A stretch of DNA of 48,286 nt from a virus. The stretch lies in the IMG/VR virus record IMGVR_UViG_3300032323_001529, positions 1 to 48,286 of that record; one strand, written 5' to 3'. The notes beneath the pieces are model-generated. The model made no database searches. It saw only the letters and a program-made list of their open reading frames with translations, and was not told the origin of the DNA. Each line of letters opens with the position of its first letter. The stretch's first letter is position 1. Position numbers and translations under genes: made by a program. Positions 3,410 through 20,097 of the stretch are shown here, piece after piece.

Positions 3410-3808
3410 ATGACTAGGATTTCTCGCAAATTTAAAGATATTAGTCTCTCATTTGCGAGAAATCCTGTGACTAATGACATTCTTTCAATCACAAATGAAG
3501 ATGCCATTAAAAAATCTGTTATAAATTTGGTTAGAACAAGACTGGGCGAACGATTTTATAACTACATTCTTGGAACAGAGATTGAAAATTCTGTATTTGA
3601 ATTGCAATCTCCAACTATTGCATATTCTTTGCAACTTGAAATTGAAACACTCCTTAAAAATTTTGAACCTAGAATTAAAAAAAGTTCTGTGGTTGTCTCA
3701 TATCCAGAAGATTCTAATGATTTGAATGTAAGAATATCCTATGATATTGTTGGTTTGTCGGTTCCTTCTCAAATTATAGAATTTATTTTACAACCAACTA
3801 GAGTCTAA
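3410..3808 (+). CDS. gp25: gp25-like baseplate wedge subunit
   Basis: This 132-residue protein is about the size of T4 gp25. It shows the GPW/gp25 family pattern: a basic N-terminus (TRISRKFKDISLSF), NPVTNDILSITNEDAIKKS, and RTRLGERFYNYILGT, the conserved arginine-rich stretch that precedes the lysozyme-like fold. It is a component of the baseplate wedge that helps join wedge and sheath. The frame can also start at a GTG at 3407; I chose the adjacent ATG at 3410. Its stop overlaps the gp6 start by one base (TAATG), so the two are translationally coupled. The neighbours gp6 and gp8 confirm the assignment. Confidence 0.93.
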   Translation: MTRISRKFKDISLSFARNPVTNDILSITNEDAIKKSVINLVRTRLGERFYNYILGTEIENSVFELQSPTIAYSLQLEIETLLKNFEPRIKKSSVVVSYPEDSNDLNVRISYDIVGLSVPSQIIEFILQPTRV

Positions 3809-5676
3809 TGTCCTTCAATCAATTTACAAACTTAGATTTCCAAGACCTAAGAACACAAATCAAAGATTATTTAAGATCAAACAGTGATTTTACTGATTTT
3901 GATTTTGAAGGATCGAACTTTTCGACTTTAATAGATTTACTTGCTTATAACAGTTATATTACCGCCTTTAACACCAACATGGCGGTCAATGAAGTATTTC
4001 TTGATAGCGCTACTCTTAGAGAAAACGTAGTTTCTCTTGCAAGAAATATTGGATATGTCCCAAGATCTAGAAGGTCTTCTAAAGCTAAAATTAATTTTAC
4101 TGTAGATATGAGTCAAACCGACTCAAGAACAGTTAAAATTGTTGCAGGTCAAGTTGCTTTAGGGGCCGTAAGAGATGGAAATTATATTTTTTCAATTCCA
4201 GATGATATTACATCACCTGTTGATAATAATGGTATTGTAACCTTCAATAATGTAGAGATATATGAAGGTGTTTACTTAACAAGTACATTTGTTGTAGATG
4301 ATTCGCAACCAAATCAACGATTTATTTTACCAAACGCTAATATAGATACAACAACAATTAGAGTTACTTCCAGAAATCAAGTATCTGAGGTTTATACCTC
4401 ATATTCTAATATTTTAAATATTGATGGAAATTCGAGAATTTTCCTGATCCAGGAAATAGAAGATCAAAAATATGAAATTATATTCGGAGATAATATTGTT
4501 GGCAAAAAACCAACCAATGGAAGTGTAATTAATGTTACGTATATTGTAACAAATGGAAGACTTGGAAATGGTTCTTCTAATTTTACTTTTTCTGGAATTT
4601 TAAAAGATAATAATTTGCAGAATGTTACTAGTGGAATCTCTTTAATTAATACTTTAAGTGCTTCGGAAAATGGAGATGACATAGAGTCTATTGATAAGAT
4701 AAAATATCTTGCTCCTCGTGTATACGCTTCTCAGTATCGTGCAGTGACCGCCAATGATTATAAGGGTTTGATTCCATTCATTTATCCAAATGTAGATTCA
4801 GTTACATCTTATGGTGGTGAAGAATTAGATCCCCCTGAATATGGAAAAGTTTTTATTTCTATAAAACCTAGAAATGGAAATTTCTTATCGCAAATTACAA
4901 AACAAGATATATTAAGAACATTAAAACAATATTCTATTGCTGGAATTCAACCAGAAATTATTGATCTATCATATCTTTATGTTGAGTTAGATACTACAAT
5001 TTATTACAATGTAAATAGGTCAACTAATCCTGAATTGGTAAGAACTAAAGTTTTAAATTCATTGATATCTTACTCATCCTCATCCGATGTTAATAGTTTT
5101 GGTGGAAGATTTAAATTTAGTAAGGTTAATGCCCTTATAGATGATACTGATCAGTCAATTACTTCAAACATTACTAAAGTCAGGATGAGAAGAGATTTAA
5201 TTCCTGAGTTAAATAGTAATGCAACATATGAATTATGTTTTGGTAATCAAATACATATCAAAAAGAATGGTTATTCCGTAAAATCTACAGGATTTTTTAT
5301 CAATGGTGTAAGTGATGTTGTTTATATGGCTGATACGCAATTAGATTCCAATTTGGGTAAAATATTTTTCTTTAAATTGGAAAATAATGAACCTGTTATC
5401 GTCAAAAATAACGCTGGAACTATAAATTATAAAAGTGGAGAAGTTCTTTTAGATGTTGTAAAGATTACTGGATCTTCTTTGAATAATGGATTGGTGGAGG
5501 TTCAAGCTATTCCAGAGTCCAATGATATTATTGGATTAAAAGATCTTTATTTACAAGTAGACGTTCAAAATTCTACGGTAAATATAATTGAAGATATTAT
5601 TACTTCTGGTGAAAATATTTCTGCAACATTATTTACCCCAACTTCAAGTTATTTAAACGGAAAATATACAAGATAA
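3808..5676 (+). CDS. gp6: gp6-like baseplate wedge subunit
   Basis: The 622-residue protein is close in length to T4 gp6 (about 660). The N-terminal part (FQDLRTQIKDYLR, then LLAYNSYITAFNTNMAVNE) and the following VSLARNIGYVPRSRRSSKA are typical of the gp6/Baseplate_J-like family. YLAPRVYASQYRAVTANDY around residues 300-318 is the other hallmark, where the chain enters the core after a beta-rich insert. gp6 dimers link neighbouring wedges into the baseplate inner ring. It is one base out from gp25 and two bases before the giant gp7-like gene, as expected for coupled assembly partners. Confidence 0.93.
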   Translation: MSFNQFTNLDFQDLRTQIKDYLRSNSDFTDFDFEGSNFSTLIDLLAYNSYITAFNTNMAVNEVFLDSATLRENVVSLARNIGYVPRSRRSSKAKINFTVDMSQTDSRTVKIVAGQVALGAVRDGNYIFSIPDDITSPVDNNGIVTFNNVEIYEGVYLTSTFVVDDSQPNQRFILPNANIDTTTIRVTSRNQVSEVYTSYSNILNIDGNSRIFLIQEIEDQKYEIIFGDNIVGKKPTNGSVINVTYIVTNGRLGNGSSNFTFSGILKDNNLQNVTSGISLINTLSASENGDDIESIDKIKYLAPRVYASQYRAVTANDYKGLIPFIYPNVDSVTSYGGEELDPPEYGKVFISIKPRNGNFLSQITKQDILRTLKQYSIAGIQPEIIDLSYLYVELDTTIYYNVNRSTNPELVRTKVLNSLISYSSSSDVNSFGGRFKFSKVNALIDDTDQSITSNITKVRMRRDLIPELNSNATYELCFGNQIHIKKNGYSVKSTGFFINGVSDVVYMADTQLDSNLGKIFFFKLENNEPVIVKNNAGTINYKSGEVLLDVVKITGSSLNNGLVEVQAIPESNDIIGLKDLYLQVDVQNSTVNIIEDIITSGENISATLFTPTSSYLNGKYTR

Positions 5677-5677
5677 C

Positions 5678-8600
5678 ATGTCCAACACCAAAAAAGTAAA
5701 AATCAATAATATCCTCCAATCTCAAATTCCTGAGTTTTTGGATGAGGAATCTCCACTTTTTAAAGCCTTTCTTTCAGAATATTATAATTCTTTAGAACAT
5801 TTTTCTGGAGCTATTGATTTATCAATAAATTTGCCTAGTTATAAAAATATTGATAATTTTACTTTTTCAAACTTAAATTCTTCTACACAAACCACTTCTG
5901 AAGTTTTAAGTTTTGATGATGTAATTCTTGTCGATTCTACTGAAGGATGGCCGGACTCTTATGGATTATTGAAAATCAATAATGAGATTATTACTTACAA
6001 AGAAAAAACTTCTAATTCATTTGTAGATTGTATTAGAGGTTTTAGTGGAATAGATAAAATAAAATCTGTCGATGATTCCAAATTTTTAACTTTCTCTTCT
6101 ACTGAAGCTTCAGAACATCCATCTGGTTCTGTTGTAGAAAATTTAAGTAATCTTTTTATTAAAGAATTTTTTGAAAAGTATAAATCTGAATTTTTACCTG
6201 GGTTTGAATCGAGAAATTTTGTAGATGATCTTTCTGTAAAAAATATTTTAATTAGAGCAAAAGATTTTTATACATCAAAAGGAACGGATACTTCGTATAA
6301 AATTCTTTTTAAAATTTTATATAATAAAGATATTGAAATTATCAAACCTCAAGATTTTACGATAATTCCATCTTCAAATTCATATTTCACTACTAAAAAT
6401 ATATTAGTAGAAAAAATTTCAGGTGGAGATCCTACCCAAACTAGAGGTAATTTTTTATTCCAAAATGTTAGTGGTGTTGGAACTGTAAGTGCCTCTATTT
6501 TTAATGTAGAATTTAGACCATTAAGAAATAAAAATTTATATGAAATTTCTTTAGATTCAACTTCTCTATCGGGAGCATTTCAAGTTGCCGGTAAAACTAA
6601 AATTTTAGAAAGTGTTCCAAAAAATTCTGATACTATTATTGTTGACTCAACCATTGGATTCTCCAAATCAGGTAAAATTTTAGTAACTCCTAAAAATTCT
6701 AATACAATAGAATTGTTTTATTCGGATAAGACAAATAATCAATTCTTAGGAGTTACTGGAATAGATAGAGATCTTGACTATGGATTAGATATTATTGAAG
6801 AAAAATTTGCTTTTAGCTACATTGGATTTGGAAATACATCAAGAGTAGACTTCCGAATTGTAAATGTTATAGATTCTATAGATTTTTCTAAAACTTCTAA
6901 TTTAAAAGTAGGAGATAAAGTTACTCTTTCTGGATTTGGAAAAGATTTGAGTGATTCTTTCCAATTCAATTCTTGGATTTACAACATTCCTACAAATCAT
7001 ATAATAAAAAATGTCTCTCAGTTAGATGCAAATAAATTTAGAGTAGTTCTCTATGATAAAGTCTCTTTTTATAAAGATGAAATTATTAAACTAGATGATG
7101 GAATTGAGAATTCTTCCAATGTTTCTATAATTTCTGTAGAATTTGATCCTGGAGATACAATTAGAAAATATTCTAACAGATTAGTAGTTCAAGCTTTAAA
7201 TCCAACGTTTAATCTTTTAAACTCTAGAGTTGTAAAAAAAATAATTTATAAAGCAAATCATAATCGTGGATTTTTTGATGGAATTTCAAAAATTCCATCA
7301 GGAGTTCAGAACACATATGTAGACTCTGAAGATTCCAATTTTTATGTAACATCTACAGGACTACCTAATTATACTCTGTTTATAGAAACTACAGAAAAAA
7401 ATGCATCTAGTTCTGGGGTGGGCATCACAGATACAATATTTTCACAAAACCATAATTTGATTACTGGTGATTCAATTTATTATGATCCAATTTCTAGTAA
7501 TTTTTCTGGAATTTCCACAGGATATTATTTTGTAACTAAACTAAATGACAATACTATCAAATTATCTTATAGTAATACTGATCTTTTTTCTAAAAAATAT
7601 ATAAGTTTTAATTCTGGAATTTCATCTGATAAATTTTTTAAATCTGGATATGAAAATAAAACAATAAAGAATCAAAAATTATTAAAAAAATTTAGATTAA
7701 ACAGAGCTTCTAATGTTTTTGATGACAAAAATGATAGAACAACTAATAATAGACCTGTAGGACTTTTAGCCAATGGAGTTGAATTATTATCTCCAACTCT
7801 TTTTGATGAAAACATTTATTATGGGAAATTAGTATCTATTGATGTTACAAATTCTGGCAGAAATTATGATGTTATCAATGTTGCTCCTTTAGAAATTAAA
7901 GATGATAGTGGATCTAGATCAAAAGCACATGTCAATTTAGTTGGCGAAGTAAAATCAGTTAAAGTAATAACTCCAGGAATTGGTTATCAAACAAAACCAA
8001 AAATTACAATATCTGGTGGAAATGGGTCTGGTTGTATTTTAGAATCTAATTTAATTAAATCTAGAATATCTGTAGGATTTAGACCAGAATCTGCAGTAAA
8101 CACTTCAACTAATGTTATTACTTTTTTAAATAATCATAATTTTGATGATGCTGAAGAAGTAATTTATAGATCTAATGAAAATAGTAATATTGGCGGTTTA
8201 GTTGATGGGTCTAGGTATTTTGTTGGAATCACTAGTTCAAATTCAATTAAAATTTTTAATACTTTTCAAGATGCAGTAAAAAAAGTAAATGAAGTTGATA
8301 TAGTAGGAATTAGTTCTGGATTCCATGTTATAGAAACTATTAAGAGTAAAAATACTATTACTCAAGTATTTGTTAAAGATCCTGGTAAAGGATATTCTAA
8401 TAGAAAAATAAAAGTACCTTCCATTTTAAGTTTAAAAGACAACATTGGAATTAATACCTTTGATTCATATATTTGTGCTACAAATCACCGTTTTTCTGAT
8501 GGCGAATTAGTTGAATACTCAACTACTGGCACTCCAATTGCAGGATTATCTACTCAAATTCAGTATTATGTAAAAGTAATTGACAAAAATAAATTTAAGT

Positions 8601-11600
8601 TATCTGAAGCTGGAATTGGGACAACATCTACTAGAAATAATTATATTGATAATATATTTGTAGAATTTTCCAGTTTGGGAATTGGGACTCACACTATTGG
8701 TTATCCAGCAATAACTGTTTCAGTAGAAGCTTTATCTGCTATTGGATCAACTGATATTGTTCAACCATTATTGGAACCAATAGTTCTTGGTTCAATAACT
8801 GATGTTTATTTGGAAGATGGTGGAGTTTCTTACGGATGCACAGATATTGTAAACTACCATAGAAGACCAAATGTAGGATTTTCTAGCATAATATCCGAAT
8901 GTGTATTGAAACCAATTATTATTAATGGAACTATTAGAGATGTTAAAATTATTAATAGAGGTAGAGGATATAGAAAAGACTCGGACATTATAATTAATGG
9001 GAATGGTCAGTTTGCTCAAATTGATCCAATTATAGAAGATGGTAGAGTTACATCAGTCAATATTATTTCTGGTGGTGTAGGATATGCATCTTCAAATACA
9101 ACTATGGCAGTTGTTAACCGAGGGTCCGATGCAAAATTTTTAGGTAATGTATTTGAGTGGAAAATAAATCAAGTTGTTAAGTCAAGTTCATCAATTTCTG
9201 AAGAAGATGATGGAATTTTATATCCAAGTAAGAACCCTGATTTTGGACTACAATTCATAAATTTCTATATTCCAAAAAAACTCAGATTCCAATTAAATGA
9301 TAATTTTACAGATACTGATTCTGAGAACTTAAATACTCTTTCTCATTCACCTATTCTTGGATTTGCATATGATGGAAATCCAATTTATGGACCATATGGT
9401 TATGATCCGTTATCTGGTGGTTCTATTAGACAAATAAGAACTAGTTATGAGTTAAGGACAAATACCGATCCACTTATCCGTCCACAAGGATTTGAACCTG
9501 GATATTTTATCAATGATTATGTTTATACTGGATCCGGAGACCTTGATGAATATAATGGAAGATGGTGTTTAACACCACAATATCCAGATGGAATTTATGC
9601 TTATTTCATATCCATAAATGTTGAACCAACTGGAAACTCTGTTCCATTATATCCATATGTAATTGGTGAATACTTTAAAGATCAACCGATTAAAGAAAAC
9701 TTTTTACCAGTTTTTAATCAAGATCTTGATATTGGTACTTTAAATATAACTAGAAATGTAGGTCCATATTATTTGAACTTTAATAATTCATATTACGATT
9801 TGATTGATAGAGTTTCTGAAGACTATAAACAAGAATTTAGAATAGATGCAGTTAATTTTTCAGGAATAACTTCAACTTCTATTTTTTCACCTGGTAGAGA
9901 CTATCAAGTTGATGATAGATTGGTAATTGAAAATAAAAATACTTCCGGAAGTGGAGCAAATATTGTAGTTTCAAAAGTTAAGGGATCAGATGTTCTACAG
10001 TTTTCTGTTGTTGATAATAAAATTATCAAGGTTAACTTTGATATTAAATCAAGAAAAGTAATCGGAAAAACTGATGAACCGCATCAATTAGTTAATAATG
10101 AAACTATTGTTCTTACTGGAGTTTCGACTATAACGTCATCTAGTATTCAAGGTAGTCATGTAATAAATGTATTAAACAAAACTATTGAATTACTTGATGA
10201 TATCCAAGATCAATCTGCAACTGGAGTTTCTACTTTTATAACTGTAAAAGATATTTCTGGATTTAAATCAAATAATTTCATTGGTATAGGTACTGAAATT
10301 CTTCATATTACTAGAGTTTCTTCTGAAAGATCTGGATTTTATGTTAATAGAATTCAAAATACTGGCGTTCACACAGCTGGAATTGATGTAGTAAGATTAC
10401 TACCAACGGAGTTTACTTTTGATCTTGAACGATCAAACTCTGACTTTGTTACTTTAGATGAAATTATATTTTTTGATCCCAAAGAGTCTGTTGGAACAGG
10501 TACAGCTGGAGTTATAAGATCTTTGGTTGGTATTGGAACAAGTAGTATAGAATCTAGATTTATTCCACAAAAATCAATTTACATACCAAATCATAAGTTT
10601 TACACTGGTCAACCATTAACTTATTTTTCTGGATTCAATGGTGTACCACTTAAGTATAATAATGTAGGATCAGCTACTTCTATATCTTTTAATGAAGGTC
10701 AAACAGTATATGCAGTAAATTTTGGCGTTGATTATATAGGAATATCCACCATAGGATTTACTAGTAGTGTTGGTGGAATAGGAACAACTTTAAATTGTGT
10801 AGAGTTTGTGAATTTTGACAATATTTTAAATACAGTAGGTGCCTCACATTCATTAACCACAAAAAATTTCCAAGTTACATCAACTTTACAAAGATTCACT
10901 GGAATAGTAACAACTACTACAGATCATAATCTTTTAACTGGTGATGAAATAGAACTAAAAATATTTAATAATCAAACTGACTCTGTAAAAATATTATATA
11001 ATCCAGAAATTAGGAAAATTACTGGAGAGAGAATTGAATTTGCCAATTCTGATATTAATATAAACGAGAATAAAATTGATTTAACTGATACTAATTTAAA
11101 AACCGGTGATAAAGTAGTATATGTTTCTACTAATCCTGCTGATGGATTGCAAAATAATGAAACATATTATATTTTAAAAACAGATTTTGATAATATAAAA
11201 TTATGCAAAAATAGAGTTGACATAAGAAATAATGTAGTAGTAAATATTAATTCTGTTGGTGGATCGTCTCACGGATTTTACTTAATAAATCCCCCATTTC
11301 ATTTTGTTGACGGAAATGTCATTAGATTTGATATTTCGGATGAAAGTATTCTGGATATGTATCTAGAATTTTACTCTGATGTTGATTTTCAAAAGAAATT
11401 AGAAATTATCGGTAATACTGAAATAGGATTTGCAATTAAGAGAAGTGGTGATGCAGGATTTTCGGGATCTTATGTAGATTTGGACACTTCTATTTCAGAA
11501 TTTCCAAAACTACTTTACTATAACTTGTTACCAAAAAGTCCAATAGATGAAAGAAAAAATCAAATCACTTCAGATAACGATGTAATTGGTAATAATAAAG

Positions 11601-14600
11601 TTGTCCTGAAATCTCATATATTGAATAGTAAATTTGTTATTAATAAATCCTCTGATAGAGTATTTAACTTTAATTTAAAAAATAAACCTACTGAATTAGA
11701 AAAAAATTCGTATGCATCATCTACAATTGAATATTTGACCAGTTCTAAAACTGCTTATGGTCCAATATCAAATCTTAAGATTAATTTTTCAGGCAGAAAG
11801 TATGATAAATTGCCATATGTCAGTAATATTATATCCGAAAGAGGTAAGGATGCAGTAATAAAATTAAATTCTCCTCATATTGGAAAAGTAGAATCTTTAG
11901 AAAGAATTAAAGATGGATTTGATTATCCAACGGATCCAACCTTATCTCCTGTATTGAGTGTACCAAGTGTTATAGGAATTAAAGATATTAGGAGAATCGA
12001 TTATATTGGTATTATTACTGGAGGTAAAAATTACAATACTTCACCAACTTTATTTGTAAAAGAAAATACGGAAATTAAGTTGGAACCTCAACTCAGCGGT
12101 GGTTCAATAGTAAAAGTTAATGTTGTTCAAAACGTAACTAACTTATCGCAACCTCTTGATATTATACCGATTTATAATTCTAATGGATATGATATTGACT
12201 TTATTAGTGTTTCTGGAGATCTTGTAACATTAGAACTTGCTAATTCTTCAAATTCAAATCCATTAATTTCTGCGGGATATGGTAAAACTGATTTTATCTT
12301 CCCATTTGAAATTGGGGATCAAATTTTTATCGAAGGTTGTAGACTTACTCCAAATACAAAATCAAAGTCTAATTTTAATTCTTCATCATATGAATATAGA
12401 TTTTTTGAAGTAGTTGGAATAAGTAGTCAGAATAACACTGTTACTTATGATATGACTGGAATATCTACCGGTCTTTTTGGTACATATGATGATGGAGTCA
12501 CTTTGGGGTATGTTGTAAACAAAAAAGATATGCCAGTTTTTGATATGATTTTAGCTGATGATGTTAAATATTTTTCTAAAGAAAGAGTAACTTCAACTAA
12601 GTTTTCTTCCATTGTTATGGAAGATGGATGGGATAATGACTTAAATCAATTAAGAACCAATAATTCTTTTGGTGAATTGAGAACTGGAGATAAAATTACC
12701 GGCGAAGTATCAAAAATAACAGGTACAGTAGAGTATCATGATAGTTTCAGTCTAAGATCTACTTTGGGTCCATTTAGAGATAAAGTGGGAGTTATTGATA
12801 ACTCTGTTGGAATTTTAAATGATTTTAATCAAAGAATTTCCGATAATTTTTATTACCAGAAGTTTTCATACTCAATCAAGAGTGAAATTCCATATGATAT
12901 TTGGAGAGAGTCTGTAAGATCTATTATACACCCATCAGGATTTAAAGAATTTTCTGATTTAGAAATTTATACCAAAGCTACACAAGGAATCGGTAGAACA
13001 ACTAATTTAAAACCATCTGTTCTCGATAAACAATCTTCATTCTTGGTAAATATAGATTCTCACAAGTCACTATATGAAAAAGATAATTTTACCACAGTAT
13101 ATGAAGAAGACTTTTTAGATGATGGTTCAGTTGAAAGAGTATTTTTAAGTGGTGGAATATCTTTAAGAAATTTCATTATCAATAAAACAAATAAAGTCAT
13201 AACAATAGATGATATTAGTGATCAATTTGATGGAACTTCTATTCAAGAATTGGATGGAAGATATGCTGATGCATCTGATCTTTTGGAATTGAATAGATCA
13301 TTTATTCAGGAGGAAGTCGTTGGATTTATTACTTCGTCTTATCCTGGAATAACAACAAATATAGATTGGGATCGTGAGATTTGCAAAAGAGATGTTGGTT
13401 TTATTGTTGATGCAATTTCACATGATATTAAATACAAATCAAATAATAAGTCTGTTGAGGCTGGATTGGCTTACTGGAGTGGATTGGGTACTTCATATGT
13501 CGCTGGAGAGTCTGAAGAAACTATAGCAGGATTTAAGTACATTATTGACTTATCGAAATACGTTATTAACAACGTAGCTATATCTACTTCATATCAAATA
13601 CCTGTATTTACAGAACCTCAACAATTTGACACTAGAATATTGGCAGATACTTCTTGCAGTCCTACTTATAATGAAAATTGTTGTTCTGATGTTTGGTCTG
13701 CAATTGGGAATTATATTGGTATAGTAACATCCATCATTGGAATTGGTACTACTGCTGCTCCCAATGTCACATATCCAAGTATTTCTAGAAGTGGATCAGT
13801 AGTAGGATTAACTACATTTAAATTGAAAAATAAAGGAACCCCATTATTTAAATATGAATTTGATTCATCAGATAGTTCAATAGTCAACATTTCTAATAAC
13901 ACTTTTACATCAATAAATCACAATTTCCAATCTGGACAAGAATTAATTTATGATTATGGAACTGGAGCTCCTATAGGAATTGCTACAACATCTTATGCTG
14001 TTGGTAATTTAGATGTGATTATGCAAGTAGGAAACTATAATGGTACAGCAATTTTTGAAAATGGATATGCACAAGCGGTTACTAGTCCTATATCGGGAAT
14101 TTCTACAGTAGTTGTTCCTGCTGGAATAAGTAATCAGGTATTTTTAAATGTTATTGGATTTGGTACTACTAGTGGAAGTAATGCTAAATTTGATGCACTT
14201 ATTACATATAATACGGGGACAGGTCAACCAATATCAACATCTTTGACATTAGTATCTGGTGGATCTGGATTTAAAGTTGGAGATGTAGTTTCAATAGCTG
14301 GTACTTATTTTAAAGGATCCACACCGACTAATAATTTAAGTTTTACTGTTACCGCAACTGCACCAACTGGAATACAGACAGCAGCAAATAATAGTTACTT
14401 AAATTTACCATCTACTAATACTAATGGATCAGGCGCTATTTTTAATGTTTATCGAGATAATGATGGACGTGTTTCTTTAATTCAGGTCGTAAATGGAGGA
14501 TCTGGATATGCTTCTACATCTGTAGTATCTATTTCTGGGACATATATTGGTGGAAATTCTCCAAATGATAGTATTTCGTTTACACCTTCAGTACTAGGTA

Positions 14601-17600
14601 CAGATAAATTACCGCGAACTTTATTTGTTAATAAAATCGATGATAATAATTTCAGGATTTCTGGATTATCTACTAGTATATTTTTTGATATTGTTGGACT
14701 TGGATCTGGTATACATTCTTTAAAATATAAAGATCCGCTTCCCTCTACAGTTATAACCATTGATGGAATAATACAAACTCAATTGAGAAGAAAATCTTTA
14801 TCAATTACCTTAGATTCTCCAATTTCCACCGCTACAACTTCAGTTATTGAAGTTTCTTCTGGAATTTCATCATTAGCTATTAATGATGTAATCAATATTA
14901 ATTCCGAATATTTACTTGTTAAAAATATAGGTATAGGCTCAACAAATTTTGTAAATGTGGAGAGGGGTTATTTTAATACTACTTCTGGAGTTCATACTGT
15001 AGGAGCTTCTGCAACTATATTCAATGGAGATTACTACATTGATGGGGATGTGATTTACTTTACAACAGCTCCATATGGAAAAATTGGTTCAGTTGGTCTT
15101 GAAACTGGTTCTATTTTTTCTGGTAGAGTTTTTACTAGAAGATTTGATCCTTCAAAACCAGTAGACAAAAATATCATTTTAGATGATATTTCTTTATCTT
15201 TTACTGGAATTGCCGCAACAGAATTTACTTTAAAATCTGGTGGCCAAACAACTACAACTATATTCAATAATGTAAATAATTCATCATTGATTAACAACAA
15301 TCCTTTTATTATTATCAATAATGTCTTCCAAGAACCAAAAGTTGATTATGATATAGATGGTAGTTCGGAAAATGTAATAAGATTTTTATCTGGAACTCCT
15401 AGTGCTGGTAAAATTTCTAAAGTTGCAATTACAACAGGATTTGGTTATGCTCCATTATTACCAGCATCAGCTGTAGCAACAGTATCAGCTGCGGGAACTA
15501 TTTCTGCAATTAATTTGACTGGTCCAGGATCGGGATATAGACAAAATATAAACGTCAGTATTGCATCCACAATTGGAACTGGAGCTAGTATTACTGCATC
15601 TGTTGGTGCTGGTGGTACTGTAACTGGATTTACTATTGTAAACGCTGGTTCTGGTTATACCACCACCTCTCTGCCAACGGTTGTTATTGGTATTCCTACT
15701 GGATATAGTAATCTTGGTGTTGCATACACTGGCGGGAGTTCTGGCGTAGGCCAAGGCGTTAAAATATCAGTATCTGTGGGTCAAGGATCAAGTATTATAT
15801 CATTTAAAATAGATAACCCCGGTATTGGATATAAAGTTGGTGATATATTGTCTGTAATTGGAATAACAACTAATCCCGGATTATCAACTTCATTTAAAGA
15901 ATTTACTTTGACTGTACAAGAAATACAAAATGATAAATTTAATGGATTTTACCCTGGACAATTTATAAAATTTGATGATATATCTTCAAATTTTAATGGC
16001 TTTAGAAGGAAATTTACTTTAAGTGTAACTACAAATAATGTCAGAGAAATATTGAGTCTCAGAACTATACCTGGATCCGATTTAAATATCACCAATAATA
16101 TATTTGTTTACATCAATGATGTTCTACAGACTCCAGAATCTTCATACACATATTCTGGCTCTAGAATAATATTTAAAGAAGCTCCAAAGGAAAATTCTAC
16201 ATGTAGTATTTTATACTATAGAGGTTCTTCTATTGATGTTGAACAAATTGAACCACCTAAAACTATAAAAGAAGGTGATGTAATTATTATTAAGGAAAAT
16301 AAAAATGATTTATTAGATATTGACCAATTTGGTAGAACTGTTAAGAAAATAATATCATCAGACCAATTTGACACTTTCACATATAATAGTATAGGTATAA
16401 CGACTGATTCAACTAAAGATAGACCATTAACTTGGATCAAACAGACTCAAGATAAAATTATAAGTGGTTCACTTTATTCGAAGAGTAGACCAAGTATTAG
16501 AAGTCGTGTTAAACCAAATGCATATGTAATTAAAAAGATACTGCCAACTGACGATGTAATATACATCGATAATGCTTATCCACTATTTTCCGATGTTGAT
16601 TTCGTAGTTGAAGATCTTAGAGATCTTATAATTAGTGAAAATAGAGTAACAGAGTCCGCCATTTGCACTTCTGTAGTTTCTTCTTCATCTTCTGTTTCAT
16701 CAATAGTTATTTCTAGCGGTGGTGTTGGTTATGCTTATACCGAAAGTCCTGTAGTAACAATTTCTAGATCTTCAATAACTAGAAAAGATCCAATCAAAGA
16801 TTGGAAACCAAGTACTGGTATATCCTCTCAATATGATTTAAATTCTATTGCTTATACAGGCAAATATGTCGTTGCTGTTGGAGATAATGATACTTTCGTA
16901 TACAGTTTAAATGGAAGTTCTTGGCAATCTGGATCTATTGGATTTGGAATTACAATAAGTTATAATTCTGTAATTGGAGTCGGTACGAATAGGTATTTTA
17001 CAAGTGGTTCTTATGGGACTGTGGCTAGTGCAGTTTCTGTAGGAAGTACTATTGGACCTTGGAGTGCAATAAATCTTTCAAGAGAAATAGTTACTCCTAC
17101 AGTAGGAGTAACGGGTAGAGTTTCCGCAGGATATACGGGTCCAATATCGGATGTTACGTATTCTCCATATCTAGATACTTTGGTTGTTGTAGGACTAAGT
17201 TCTATATTTAGTGGAGTTGGTATTGGAACTACAACATTAATAAGTAGATTTTCCGGAACATTACAGACACTCAATAGTTTGGCTTATGGTCCATCAAACA
17301 TTATTGCTGTTGGTAATGATTCGGTAATACTTAGTAGTGTAAATGGAGTAATTTGGGAAGATTTATTATCACCAACTACCGTTAACTTAAATAAAGTTAT
17401 TCATGTTGATGGTGAATTCGTAGTTGTTGGCGATCTTGGCACTGTTATTAAATCCACAAATTCATTTACATTTAATTCTGTGACAACAAATATTTCTGAA
17501 GATATTATAGACATTTCATATAATGATTTTTATGTGATATTGACATCATTAGGAAATTTATATTATTCTTTCGATCTCTCAAATTGGGTTCTAAGGGAAA

Positions 17601-18466
17601 CAAATCAAGTTAATACTTTAAGAAGTGGTTTGTTCATTAATGAAATTGGATTGGAAGGTAGATACATTTTTGTTGGATCTTCTGGAACATCAATTTATGC
17701 AGATCCAATTTATAATAGAGCTACTGCTATTTCAAATGTTACTGCGGGAGTCGTTACTTCAGTTACCATTGAAAATGGTGGATTTGGATATTCTCAATCA
17801 AATGTACCATCGGTTCTTATTGAACCAGATTCTCCAAAAACTGAATTTGTCAGATCATTTAAGGTCATGGGTGATTATGGAACGATAATTGGCATTAATA
17901 CTTTTGTTGCAGGAACTCCTGGAATTGGAACAACTTCACCGAAGGTTGAATTCATTCTTAAATCTGAATTTTATGATAACAGCACTCTTGGAATCGGATA
18001 TTCTTCATTAAATTCTTTTGGTATTACTTATAGTCAATTATCTAAAGGAGACTATTTTGTAATTACCGATAGTAATGTAACTGTTGGACATGCTTTAACT
18101 GGTATTACCACCTCTTTAGGTGGAATGTCAAATTATCCAGCTTCTAGAGTTGGAACTTCTACTGAATTTTTGGATGGTGTTTATATTGTTGAACATATCA
18201 CAAATGCTACATTAGGAATAGTAACAGTGACTTGCAATTTTGCTCCAATTGAAGGACCTACAGGTAATTATGTTGAAGTTTATAAACGAGGTGAAAATAA
18301 TACAGGAATTAACACTAATAATTTCTATGGTAAATATAGTTGGTCCAAGATTTTTGATTATGAAAATAGAGTTTTAGGTTCTCCAAAACAATTTGACGTA
18401 TATACAAATAATGGTTTGGTTGGTTTATCAACTGGACCAATGATAAGACGAACAAGAGATTTATAA
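5678..18466 (+). CDS. Giant gp7-position baseplate wedge protein (4262 aa), multi-domain
   Basis: Position between gp6 and gp8 and the N-terminus point to a gp7-like wedge initiator: helical start (QIPEFLDEESPLFKAFLSEYY) and KGTDTSYKILFKILY at about residues 201-215, a motif seen in wedge initiators. The rest is a mosaic. More than a dozen Gly-Tyr repeats (GGxGY, e.g. near 7975, 9073, 14498, 15652, 17784) and several H-x(n)-G-D/E-x-V-x-Y units recur. A YHYH-like domain spans about residues 1225-1332. A module around C2569 (CKRDVGFIVDA) is shared with the tail fibre. Seven Asp-box-like repeats (about 3712-4013) suggest a beta-propeller. T4 gp7 is about 1030 residues, so some 3000 residues are extra and probably form surface or peripheral structures. 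One uninterrupted frame; composition very AT-rich. The gp7 name is inferred mainly from position. Confidence 0.8.
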   Translation: MSNTKKVKINNILQSQIPEFLDEESPLFKAFLSEYYNSLEHFSGAIDLSINLPSYKNIDNFTFSNLNSSTQTTSEVLSFDDVILVDSTEGWPDSYGLLKINNEIITYKEKTSNSFVDCIRGFSGIDKIKSVDDSKFLTFSSTEASEHPSGSVVENLSNLFIKEFFEKYKSEFLPGFESRNFVDDLSVKNILIRAKDFYTSKGTDTSYKILFKILYNKDIEIIKPQDFTIIPSSNSYFTTKNILVEKISGGDPTQTRGNFLFQNVSGVGTVSASIFNVEFRPLRNKNLYEISLDSTSLSGAFQVAGKTKILESVPKNSDTIIVDSTIGFSKSGKILVTPKNSNTIELFYSDKTNNQFLGVTGIDRDLDYGLDIIEEKFAFSYIGFGNTSRVDFRIVNVIDSIDFSKTSNLKVGDKVTLSGFGKDLSDSFQFNSWIYNIPTNHIIKNVSQLDANKFRVVLYDKVSFYKDEIIKLDDGIENSSNVSIISVEFDPGDTIRKYSNRLVVQALNPTFNLLNSRVVKKIIYKANHNRGFFDGISKIPSGVQNTYVDSEDSNFYVTSTGLPNYTLFIETTEKNASSSGVGITDTIFSQNHNLITGDSIYYDPISSNFSGISTGYYFVTKLNDNTIKLSYSNTDLFSKKYISFNSGISSDKFFKSGYENKTIKNQKLLKKFRLNRASNVFDDKNDRTTNNRPVGLLANGVELLSPTLFDENIYYGKLVSIDVTNSGRNYDVINVAPLEIKDDSGSRSKAHVNLVGEVKSVKVITPGIGYQTKPKITISGGNGSGCILESNLIKSRISVGFRPESAVNTSTNVITFLNNHNFDDAEEVIYRSNENSNIGGLVDGSRYFVGITSSNSIKIFNTFQDAVKKVNEVDIVGISSGFHVIETIKSKNTITQVFVKDPGKGYSNRKIKVPSILSLKDNIGINTFDSYICATNHRFSDGELVEYSTTGTPIAGLSTQIQYYVKVIDKNKFKLSEAGIGTTSTRNNYIDNIFVEFSSLGIGTHTIGYPAITVSVEALSAIGSTDIVQPLLEPIVLGSITDVYLEDGGVSYGCTDIVNYHRRPNVGFSSIISECVLKPIIINGTIRDVKIINRGRGYRKDSDIIINGNGQFAQIDPIIEDGRVTSVNIISGGVGYASSNTTMAVVNRGSDAKFLGNVFEWKINQVVKSSSSISEEDDGILYPSKNPDFGLQFINFYIPKKLRFQLNDNFTDTDSENLNTLSHSPILGFAYDGNPIYGPYGYDPLSGGSIRQIRTSYELRTNTDPLIRPQGFEPGYFINDYVYTGSGDLDEYNGRWCLTPQYPDGIYAYFISINVEPTGNSVPLYPYVIGEYFKDQPIKENFLPVFNQDLDIGTLNITRNVGPYYLNFNNSYYDLIDRVSEDYKQEFRIDAVNFSGITSTSIFSPGRDYQVDDRLVIENKNTSGSGANIVVSKVKGSDVLQFSVVDNKIIKVNFDIKSRKVIGKTDEPHQLVNNETIVLTGVSTITSSSIQGSHVINVLNKTIELLDDIQDQSATGVSTFITVKDISGFKSNNFIGIGTEILHITRVSSERSGFYVNRIQNTGVHTAGIDVVRLLPTEFTFDLERSNSDFVTLDEIIFFDPKESVGTGTAGVIRSLVGIGTSSIESRFIPQKSIYIPNHKFYTGQPLTYFSGFNGVPLKYNNVGSATSISFNEGQTVYAVNFGVDYIGISTIGFTSSVGGIGTTLNCVEFVNFDNILNTVGASHSLTTKNFQVTSTLQRFTGIVTTTTDHNLLTGDEIELKIFNNQTDSVKILYNPEIRKITGERIEFANSDININENKIDLTDTNLKTGDKVVYVSTNPADGLQNNETYYILKTDFDNIKLCKNRVDIRNNVVVNINSVGGSSHGFYLINPPFHFVDGNVIRFDISDESILDMYLEFYSDVDFQKKLEIIGNTEIGFAIKRSGDAGFSGSYVDLDTSISEFPKLLYYNLLPKSPIDERKNQITSDNDVIGNNKVVLKSHILNSKFVINKSSDRVFNFNLKNKPTELEKNSYASSTIEYLTSSKTAYGPISNLKINFSGRKYDKLPYVSNIISERGKDAVIKLNSPHIGKVESLERIKDGFDYPTDPTLSPVLSVPSVIGIKDIRRIDYIGIITGGKNYNTSPTLFVKENTEIKLEPQLSGGSIVKVNVVQNVTNLSQPLDIIPIYNSNGYDIDFISVSGDLVTLELANSSNSNPLISAGYGKTDFIFPFEIGDQIFIEGCRLTPNTKSKSNFNSSSYEYRFFEVVGISSQNNTVTYDMTGISTGLFGTYDDGVTLGYVVNKKDMPVFDMILADDVKYFSKERVTSTKFSSIVMEDGWDNDLNQLRTNNSFGELRTGDKITGEVSKITGTVEYHDSFSLRSTLGPFRDKVGVIDNSVGILNDFNQRISDNFYYQKFSYSIKSEIPYDIWRESVRSIIHPSGFKEFSDLEIYTKATQGIGRTTNLKPSVLDKQSSFLVNIDSHKSLYEKDNFTTVYEEDFLDDGSVERVFLSGGISLRNFIINKTNKVITIDDISDQFDGTSIQELDGRYADASDLLELNRSFIQEEVVGFITSSYPGITTNIDWDREICKRDVGFIVDAISHDIKYKSNNKSVEAGLAYWSGLGTSYVAGESEETIAGFKYIIDLSKYVINNVAISTSYQIPVFTEPQQFDTRILADTSCSPTYNENCCSDVWSAIGNYIGIVTSIIGIGTTAAPNVTYPSISRSGSVVGLTTFKLKNKGTPLFKYEFDSSDSSIVNISNNTFTSINHNFQSGQELIYDYGTGAPIGIATTSYAVGNLDVIMQVGNYNGTAIFENGYAQAVTSPISGISTVVVPAGISNQVFLNVIGFGTTSGSNAKFDALITYNTGTGQPISTSLTLVSGGSGFKVGDVVSIAGTYFKGSTPTNNLSFTVTATAPTGIQTAANNSYLNLPSTNTNGSGAIFNVYRDNDGRVSLIQVVNGGSGYASTSVVSISGTYIGGNSPNDSISFTPSVLGTDKLPRTLFVNKIDDNNFRISGLSTSIFFDIVGLGSGIHSLKYKDPLPSTVITIDGIIQTQLRRKSLSITLDSPISTATTSVIEVSSGISSLAINDVININSEYLLVKNIGIGSTNFVNVERGYFNTTSGVHTVGASATIFNGDYYIDGDVIYFTTAPYGKIGSVGLETGSIFSGRVFTRRFDPSKPVDKNIILDDISLSFTGIAATEFTLKSGGQTTTTIFNNVNNSSLINNNPFIIINNVFQEPKVDYDIDGSSENVIRFLSGTPSAGKISKVAITTGFGYAPLLPASAVATVSAAGTISAINLTGPGSGYRQNINVSIASTIGTGASITASVGAGGTVTGFTIVNAGSGYTTTSLPTVVIGIPTGYSNLGVAYTGGSSGVGQGVKISVSVGQGSSIISFKIDNPGIGYKVGDILSVIGITTNPGLSTSFKEFTLTVQEIQNDKFNGFYPGQFIKFDDISSNFNGFRRKFTLSVTTNNVREILSLRTIPGSDLNITNNIFVYINDVLQTPESSYTYSGSRIIFKEAPKENSTCSILYYRGSSIDVEQIEPPKTIKEGDVIIIKENKNDLLDIDQFGRTVKKIISSDQFDTFTYNSIGITTDSTKDRPLTWIKQTQDKIISGSLYSKSRPSIRSRVKPNAYVIKKILPTDDVIYIDNAYPLFSDVDFVVEDLRDLIISENRVTESAICTSVVSSSSSVSSIVISSGGVGYAYTESPVVTISRSSITRKDPIKDWKPSTGISSQYDLNSIAYTGKYVVAVGDNDTFVYSLNGSSWQSGSIGFGITISYNSVIGVGTNRYFTSGSYGTVASAVSVGSTIGPWSAINLSREIVTPTVGVTGRVSAGYTGPISDVTYSPYLDTLVVVGLSSIFSGVGIGTTTLISRFSGTLQTLNSLAYGPSNIIAVGNDSVILSSVNGVIWEDLLSPTTVNLNKVIHVDGEFVVVGDLGTVIKSTNSFTFNSVTTNISEDIIDISYNDFYVILTSLGNLYYSFDLSNWVLRETNQVNTLRSGLFINEIGLEGRYIFVGSSGTSIYADPIYNRATAISNVTAGVVTSVTIENGGFGYSQSNVPSVLIEPDSPKTEFVRSFKVMGDYGTIIGINTFVAGTPGIGTTSPKVEFILKSEFYDNSTLGIGYSSLNSFGITYSQLSKGDYFVITDSNVTVGHALTGITTSLGGMSNYPASRVGTSTEFLDGVYIVEHITNATLGIVTVTCNFAPIEGPTGNYVEVYKRGENNTGINTNNFYGKYSWSKIFDYENRVLGSPKQFDVYTNNGLVGLSTGPMIRRTRDL

Positions 18467-18501: not shown

Positions 18502-20097
18502 ATGCCTGCTATTATATCAGATCAGTTTAGAATTTTAAACGCTGAAAACTTTGTAAAGAATGTTGTTGGCGTGGCTAACACTTCGGACAGGTATTATACC
18601 TTCATTGGTATGCCAAATGCGTTGAATCTTTCTGCTGGTGGTTCTCCAACTTGGATTACCAACACTCCCGCACCTCTAGATGGATTTAAAGAAGAAAATG
18701 AAATAAAGGAAACAATAATTTCTATGAAACAAATTACATCTCAAGATGTAAGAAGGTTGATTAGAAAAAATACATGGATTTCTGGATCTACATATGAAAT
18801 GTATAGACATGATTATAGTATATACAATCCATCTCCTATTACAAATTCACCATCCTTATATGAGTCAAATTACTATGTAATTAATGAGGATTTAAGGGTT
18901 TATATTTGTTTGCAAAATGGAACTGATCCAGAAAATCCAAAGGGCAGACCTTCTTTCGATCAACCAACCTTTATTGATTTAGAACCAAGGGCTGCAGGAA
19001 CTAGTGGAGATGGTTATATTTGGAAATATCTATTTACCATTAAACCATCAGAAATAGTTAAATTTGATTCAATTGAATATATTCCTGTACCAGAAAACTG
19101 GGGTAATAGTAGTGAAAGTATAGCTACAAAAAATAATGCAATTGAAGGTAAAATAGAAATTGTATTGATTAATAATAGAGGTTCAAATTATCAACCAATA
19201 TCAACATCTTTTTCAAATGTGCCAATTTTGGGAGATGGTGATGGGGGAAAAGCGACTATCACTATAGATTCTTTTGGAAAAGTTTCGGAAGTATTTGTAA
19301 CTGAAGGTGGTTCTGGATATACTTACGGAACTATTCAATTTTATCCTGGAGCTCCAGGATCTGGCATTGGTGGACCATTAAGTAGTTTAACTAACACTGG
19401 AATTGGTACTACTTCTATAGCTTCTTTTAATGTTATTATTCCACCTAGGGGTGGACATGGATACGATATCTATAAAGAATTGGGAGCTTATAGAGTTCTT
19501 CTTTATTCTAGATATGAAACTTTGGATAGTAACCCAGATGTTATCTTGGGAAATGACTTTGCTAGAGTTGGAATAATTAAAAATCCAACTATCCGAAATA
19601 GTGATGTTGAAATTTTGAATACTTCTCTTGTAAGTGGATTAAATGCCTTGAAACTTTCTGGAGTAACAACTAATACAACTTATGCTGTAGATTCTGTTAT
19701 TAAACAAACTGTTGGACTAGGATCTACTGCTATTGGATTTGTAGCTTCATGGGATTCTATAACAGGAGTTTTAAAGTATTATCAACCAACAGGATTAGCT
19801 TCCAGTGAATCTGGATTTAGAATTATAAAATTTACTTCAAATCCAGATGTTGGATATGGTACTACAATAAATTGTAGTTCTATAATTGGTCCAGCTTTAT
19901 CGATTGATACTAATTTTAATGGTATTACTACAACAATAAATAATAGAATATATCAGTTAGGCGTGGATTTTGTTTCTGGAATAGGTTCAGCGGAATTTAA
20001 CAAAAAATCCGGAGAAATAATCTACATAGATAATAGAGCTCCTATTCCAAGATCAGCGAGCCAAAAAGAAGATATTAAAATTGTACTGGAGTTCTAA
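18502..20097 (+). CDS. gp8: gp8-like baseplate wedge subunit, enlarged
   Basis: The N-terminal half matches gp8: SDRYYTFIGMPNAL, then QDVRRLIRKNTWISGSTYEMYRHDY, YYVINEDLRVYICLQNG and DGYIWKYLFTIKPSEIVKFDSIEYIPVP are the family's conserved blocks. gp8 binds gp7 in the wedge and helps hold the baseplate periphery. At 531 residues it is well above the T4 size (about 334). The extra length includes a Gly-Tyr module (about residues 215-290, with NNRGSNYQPIS and EGGSGYTYG) of the kind seen in the upstream giant protein. The conserved block GGHGYDIYKELGAYRVLLYSRYE returns after it. The gene follows a late-promoter-like cluster and is six bases before the next ORF. Confidence 0.9.
   Translation: MPAIISDQFRILNAENFVKNVVGVANTSDRYYTFIGMPNALNLSAGGSPTWITNTPAPLDGFKEENEIKETIISMKQITSQDVRRLIRKNTWISGSTYEMYRHDYSIYNPSPITNSPSLYESNYYVINEDLRVYICLQNGTDPENPKGRPSFDQPTFIDLEPRAAGTSGDGYIWKYLFTIKPSEIVKFDSIEYIPVPENWGNSSESIATKNNAIEGKIEIVLINNRGSNYQPISTSFSNVPILGDGDGGKATITIDSFGKVSEVFVTEGGSGYTYGTIQFYPGAPGSGIGGPLSSLTNTGIGTTSIASFNVIIPPRGGHGYDIYKELGAYRVLLYSRYETLDSNPDVILGNDFARVGIIKNPTIRNSDVEILNTSLVSGLNALKLSGVTTNTTYAVDSVIKQTVGLGSTAIGFVASWDSITGVLKYYQPTGLASSESGFRIIKFTSNPDVGYGTTINCSSIIGPALSIDTNFNGITTTINNRIYQLGVDFVSGIGSAEFNKKSGEIIYIDNRAPIPRSASQKEDIKIVLEF

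Follow-up and report, generated by a model that had tools for sequence, protein, structure and literature searches.

Results

Organization of the gp7 locus

The stretch of DNA analyzed here (the window) comprises the 48,286 nucleotides of IMG/VR record IMGVR_UViG_3300032323_001529 and encodes, in order, gp6, a very large ORF in the position of gp7, gp8, and a 2501-aa DUF4815 protein. In a PHROG profile scan, the large ORF matched PHROG 2885, "baseplate wedge subunit", at 2326 bits. The gp6-gp7-gp8 order and the gp7 profile place its product among the T4-type baseplate wedge gp7 proteins, the direct match to T4 gp7 (9f4a) being weak (phmmer, E 7e-4). The baseplate wedge setting proposed for this protein in the initial annotation is therefore borne out by gene order and profiles. 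A Pfam YHYH domain is present at residues 1217-1315, and the features of the locus are listed in Table 1.

Table 1. Features of the gp7 locus (window positions)
Feature	Position	Strand	Basis
gp6, baseplate wedge (context)	3808..5676	+	Pfam Gp6-like domains, PHROG 219
gp7-position baseplate wedge protein, 4262 aa, propeller-bearing	5678..18466	+	PHROG 2885, phmmer, gene order
GGxGY repeat preceding the propeller, residues 3662-3696	16661..16765	+	Directly in sequence
Predicted seven-bladed Ycf48-like beta-propeller, residues about 3709-4012	16802..17713	+	AlphaFold2, Foldseek
Short N-terminal strand, residues 3709-3713, at invariant W	16802..16816	+	DSSP strand, model residues 61-64
Blade 1 (LNSIAYTGKYVVAVG...SLNGSSW)	16838..16936	+	Strand order in model; hhalign homology to blades 4 and 5
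Blade 2	16961..17092	+	Strand order in model only
Blade 3	17144..17254	+	Strand order in model only
Blade 4 (LNSLAYGPSNIIAVG...SVNGVIW)	17267..17365	+	Model; hhalign with blade 5
Blade 5 (LNKVIHVDGEFVVVG...)	17387..17482	+	Model; hhalign
Blade 6, YYSFDLSNW Asp-box hairpin	17504..17596	+	Model; motif kept in S-SSM7, Sf-FS3, S-SCSM2R
Blade 7, three strands	17618..17701	+	Model
GGxGY repeat following the propeller, residues 4014-4050	17717..17827	+	Sequence comparison with propeller-less gp7s
Conserved gp7 C-terminal region, common to propeller-less relatives	17723..18463	+	38 phage records
gp8, baseplate wedge (context)	18502..20097	+	Pfam PF09215, E 9e-10

This giant virion gene has been split or fused repeatedly across relatives: it is a single gene in the window and reaches about 5170 aa (15.5 kb) in S-SCSM2R, in S-SSM7 and Sf-FS3 three ORFs of about 3000, 340, and 2500-3000 aa cover the region, and in DSL-LC02 and B23 it forms two ORFs. 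The space between gp7 and gp8 is occupied in S-SCSM1 by genes for a 2OG-Fe(II) oxygenase and a tail fibre (L108:4782-6135) and in S-B05 by one for a 458-aa "unclassified head protein" (L110:4668-6044); it is empty in the remaining relatives read. PHROG 460 (head closure Hc2) was matched both by gp7 residues 3181-3339 (P0001) and by parts of gp8, which suggests a beta module common to several cyanophage virion proteins.

Repeats and Asp-box motifs

The ORF, motifs, and coordinates given in the initial annotation were all correct, and its observation as a whole was confirmed. The strict motif VAVG-x(n)-S-x-N/D-x-W occurs twice in the entire gp7-position protein, both times within the propeller segment; the expectation is 0.007 per shuffled segment, and none of 2000 shuffles reached two occurrences. 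Blades 1, 4, and 5 are mutually homologous, with hhalign probabilities of 59-96% for the pairs 1-4, 1-5, and 4-5 (96% for blade 4 against blade 5), and all remaining blade pairs scored 16% or less. Because hhalign links just these three, the "seven repeats" originally described are poorly founded in sequence, where only repeats 1, 4, and 5 are clear, but the count of seven holds for the units of the predicted structure.

The Asp-box blade hairpins typical of the PF14870-like class are present, in degenerate form in the window and in canonical form in L100 and S-CAM9. The window's SLNGSSW, SVNGVIW, and SFDLSNW ends lack one residue relative to the canonical SxDxGxTW, to which the ends in relatives (SNDGTGW, SSDNGTSW, SSDNGLTW) come closer. 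The propeller is acidic (11 K+R vs 21 D+E per 300 residues) and has no conserved arginine cluster, just one arginine being invariant inside it in alignment A2. YYSFDL and RKDPI served as search patterns, which partly accounts for their conservation in A2.

A closed seven-bladed propeller is predicted

The initial annotation had staked its proposal of a seven-bladed Asp-box propeller on structure prediction, and a closed propeller was indeed predicted. The AlphaFold2 model of residues 3650-4060, computed from alignment A2 (33 sequences), is all beta, with a pLDDT of 90.8 and a pTM of 0.84. Its strands group into seven sets of roughly four each, from which we assigned the blades, and both the model and the Foldseek matches below support a closed, seven-bladed form like that of the Ycf48/HCF136-like class. 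The tryptophan of the short N-terminal strand is invariant in A2, and in the model this strand probably closes blade 7 as a "velcro". The C-terminal region of gp7, modeled in order to locate the propeller within the baseplate, gave a poor model (pLDDT only 65.7) and no fold match.

Kinship with Ycf48/HCF136

Searched against the PDB with Foldseek, the model had 1533 matches below 0.001. Ycf48/HCF136 took all of the top 11 places, with E-values down to 4.4e-11, TM scores (target) up to 0.74, and 14-16% identity, and designed and WD40 propellers came next. Among viral structures (BFVD), the gp7 of S-SSM7 matched best (TM 0.92); the matches ranked next were uncharacterised phage proteins and a BNR protein from Synechococcus phage S-CBWM1.

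The comparison with BNR/Ycf48 profiles called for in the initial annotation failed for the window segment alone, which gave no usable match in Pfam, NCBIfam, or PHROG scans and stayed below the curated cut-off of 27 bits for PSII_BNR (Pfam PF14870), but it succeeded for relatives at the same site. PSII_BNR scored 27.9 bits in L052, which is 43% identical to the window segment, 30.8 bits at the same gp7 site of DSL-LC03, 32.8 bits in L145, a near-twin of DSL-LC03, and 27.2 bits in L146. Furthermore, the DSL-LC03 domain matched four Ycf48 chains of the PDB by phmmer (E 6e-5 to 1.2e-4), and a profile of subgroup 2 (A6: S-CAM9, S-8S55, DSL-LC03, and relatives) retrieved six Ycf48/HCF136 sequences from the PDB (best E 3.8e-8) and nothing else below 0.1. 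The corresponding profile of subgroup 1 retrieved just a weak WD40 match (E 0.5). The two subgroups have zero members in common and are homologous (hhalign 99.9%, E 1e-32, 287 columns). Taken together, Foldseek, the subgroup-2 profile, and the PSII_BNR scores of relatives support the proposed kinship with Ycf48/HCF136.

A fixed insertion site and a single clade of bearers

Near the C-terminus of gp7, two GGxGY repeats enclose the propeller. The span between the flanks is 319-376 aa in 16 gp7s with the propeller, versus 14-38 aa in 10 without it, and in the propeller-less gp7s whose sequence was read the two GGxGY repeats follow one another with a short linker between them. The search for relatives of the C-terminal flank yielded 38 phage records, 14 of which carry the propeller: S-SSM7 (two records), S-SSM6a, Sf-FS3, S-SCSM2R, S-CAM9 (four), S-8S53/55/56, DSL-LC03, and DSL-LC02, the last counted by its span and the look of its repeats only, its Pfam scan being negative. 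The propeller-less gp7s, each checked singly, are those of P-SSM2, S-SM2, S-SCSM1, Bellamy, S-B05, P-TIM68, SynMITS9220M01, B23, S-T4, and AG-345-D19.

In a maximum-likelihood tree built from the two flanks without the propeller, the 16 bearers form one clade (UFBoot 100), which is most simply read as a single gain, or a single loss in the sister lineages, with vertical descent afterwards. At least 166 stretches in IMG/VR encode subgroup 1 relatives, and 25 plus 2 stretches carry subgroup 2 relatives; the hosts of isolated relatives are cyanobacteria. When cellular genomes were scanned with a profile, a single locus came up and no cellular donor was found. That locus, on a Rhodobacteraceae MAG contig (L101, NZVE01000039.1), holds the cyanophage gp7 propeller together with its flanks and is probably phage sequence that was binned wrongly.

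The propeller diverges faster than its flanks

Across 91 pairs of bearers, mean identity was 37% in the propeller versus 48% and 50% in the flanks, and the propeller was below both flanks in 89 of these pairs. Within the propeller, conservation is highest in the Asp-box hairpins and B strands and lower in the inter-blade loops. Conservation of the loops, compared face by face, showed no clear split into a conserved and a variable side that would mark a ligand site. The faster divergence of the propeller may also reflect weaker constraint.

Discussion

The fold, the family kinship, the fixed insertion point, the single clade of bearers, and the divergence above that of the flanks are well supported. 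The explanation that we favor, at about even chances, is that the Ycf48-like propeller is a non-enzymatic, exposed binding module, most likely for a ligand on the host surface. This PSII_BNR-type, seven-bladed Asp-box propeller would form a closed module between the two GGxGY repeats of gp7, with its N and C ends brought next to each other by the strand closure of blade 7; with adjacent ends, it could project from the wedge and leave the surrounding chain undisturbed. It would have no enzyme activity and would work as a binding surface, the likeliest ligand being the host surface during adsorption or baseplate rearrangement, and it would add a contact beside those of the tail fibres. An exposed binding module is favored by the fast divergence, by the propellers in fibre proteins elsewhere, and by the baseplate propellers of phi11 and phiKZ. 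The binding or glycan-contacting role proposed in the initial annotation is plausible, but nothing was found in support of sialidase chemistry. As the search turned up no Kyanoviridae baseplate structure, the position and exposure of the module in the virion are inferred. Against this explanation count the ten checked relatives that lack the propeller, the missing family match of the window segment, the poor model of the C-terminal region, the loops with no clear sign of a ligand site, and weaker constraint as another possible cause of the fast divergence. The more specific proposal, that host recognition in this clade lies with a Ycf48-type domain of the gp7 wedge protein as well as with the fibres, so that gp7 helps to choose or grip the Synechococcus host, is tentative and on balance rather doubtful.

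Almost as probable as host-surface binding is a part in docking. Here the propeller would be a scaffolding or docking module that holds another virion protein (a fibre connector, a neighbouring wedge, or one of the giant fibre-like proteins encoded downstream), with no host contact. In favor of this, both homology and gene order make gp7 a wedge protein. The module was also inherited with its gp7 in one clade and not exchanged between lineages, and receptor-binding modules are often exchanged between lineages. Propellers, Ycf48 included, mostly mediate protein-protein contacts (PMC8038367), which again suits docking; however, the propeller outpaces its flanks in divergence, unlike a surface locked to a partner, and relatives with an empty site have the same neighbours, gp8 and the large downstream protein.

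The remaining readings are far less probable. Sialidases (GH33) have six blades, a RIP motif, and an arginine triad, whereas the window domain has seven predicted blades, no RIP motif, and almost no arginine that is conserved. An enzyme that attacks the host envelope, as a sialidase or by cleaving other glycosides, is thus very improbable, even though Asp-boxes are common in sialidases and some phage Asp-box proteins have been so read from annotation (PMC4802629); the closest structures are the non-enzymatic Ycf48 proteins, and glycosidases appear at E 0.1 or worse. A Ycf48 mimic acting on host photosystem II would fit the top matches, which are Ycf48 by both fold and profile, and the cyanobacterial hosts of isolated relatives, but we give this reading still less credence: the propeller is embedded in a 4262-aa virion protein, the domain is acidic and the six-arginine D1-binding patch is missing, and phages whose hosts are not photosynthetic have similar propellers too. 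The weakness in sequence of four of the seven repeats would suit a low-complexity beta protein with repeats arisen by chance and no propeller, but against the high-confidence model, the PDB matches, and the Pfam hits among relatives, this reading is the least credible of all.

To our knowledge, little has been established about which receptors T4-like cyanophages use and which of their parts bind them, and their very large gp7 proteins are unexplained. The presence or absence of the propeller divides otherwise similar phages, and because it is a discrete module, modeled with high confidence and expressible alone, it makes the question of gp7 function testable. The assignment also corrects annotations such as "large exoprotein" or "hypothetical protein", for example in S-SCSM2R and S-SSM6a. 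The initial annotation went too far in regarding such a domain as undescribed for a baseplate protein: baseplate propellers are already known, with phiKZ gp131C and phi11 Gp45 described (PMC4901313), as are Ycf48-like propellers in phage fibre proteins. The literature searched gave no description of a Ycf48-type propeller within a T4-type gp7, which to that extent is new.

Comparison with known systems

The same module, in the same position, is present in the gp7s of S-SSM7, Sf-FS3, S-SCSM2R, S-CAM9, S-8S53/55/56, and DSL-LC03; identity in the propeller is 23-42%, and none is annotated as a propeller. Propellers of the same type, in fibre or free-standing proteins and not as wedge inserts, are found in the BNR protein of S-CBWM1, in the T7-type tail fibre gp039 of Caulobacter phage KSC (Pfam Phage_T7_tail at the N-terminus, propeller-like repeats in the C-terminal half), and in a gene cluster of DSL-LC01 that encodes collagen-like fibres. 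The DSL-LC01 protein (L117:3875-4744) is a free-standing, very regular Asp-box repeat protein annotated as a photosystem II assembly factor, and the stated host of this phage is an Actinomycetia, not a cyanobacterium.

PMC4901313 presents phiKZ gp131C (PDB 4GBF) as a seven-bladed propeller at the baseplate periphery of a myophage and as a proposed receptor-binding or degrading domain; by that description it resembles the gp7 propeller, but it is the C-terminal domain of a peripheral baseplate protein in a distant phage and not an insert in gp7. The receptor-binding protein Gp45 of phi11 carries a baseplate propeller that serves host recognition (PMC4901313); it has five blades, unlike the seven of the gp7 propeller, and belongs to a homotrimeric siphophage protein with a cavity that fits GlcNAc. 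Ycf48/HCF136 (PF14870; PDB 2xbg, 5ojr, 8am5) shares the seven-bladed Asp-box propeller with gp7. However, Ycf48 is a free lumenal (lipo)protein whose conserved patch of six arginines binds D1 (PMC10403576), whereas the gp7 propeller, about 15% identical, is an acidic module that occupies residues 3709-4012 of a virion protein.
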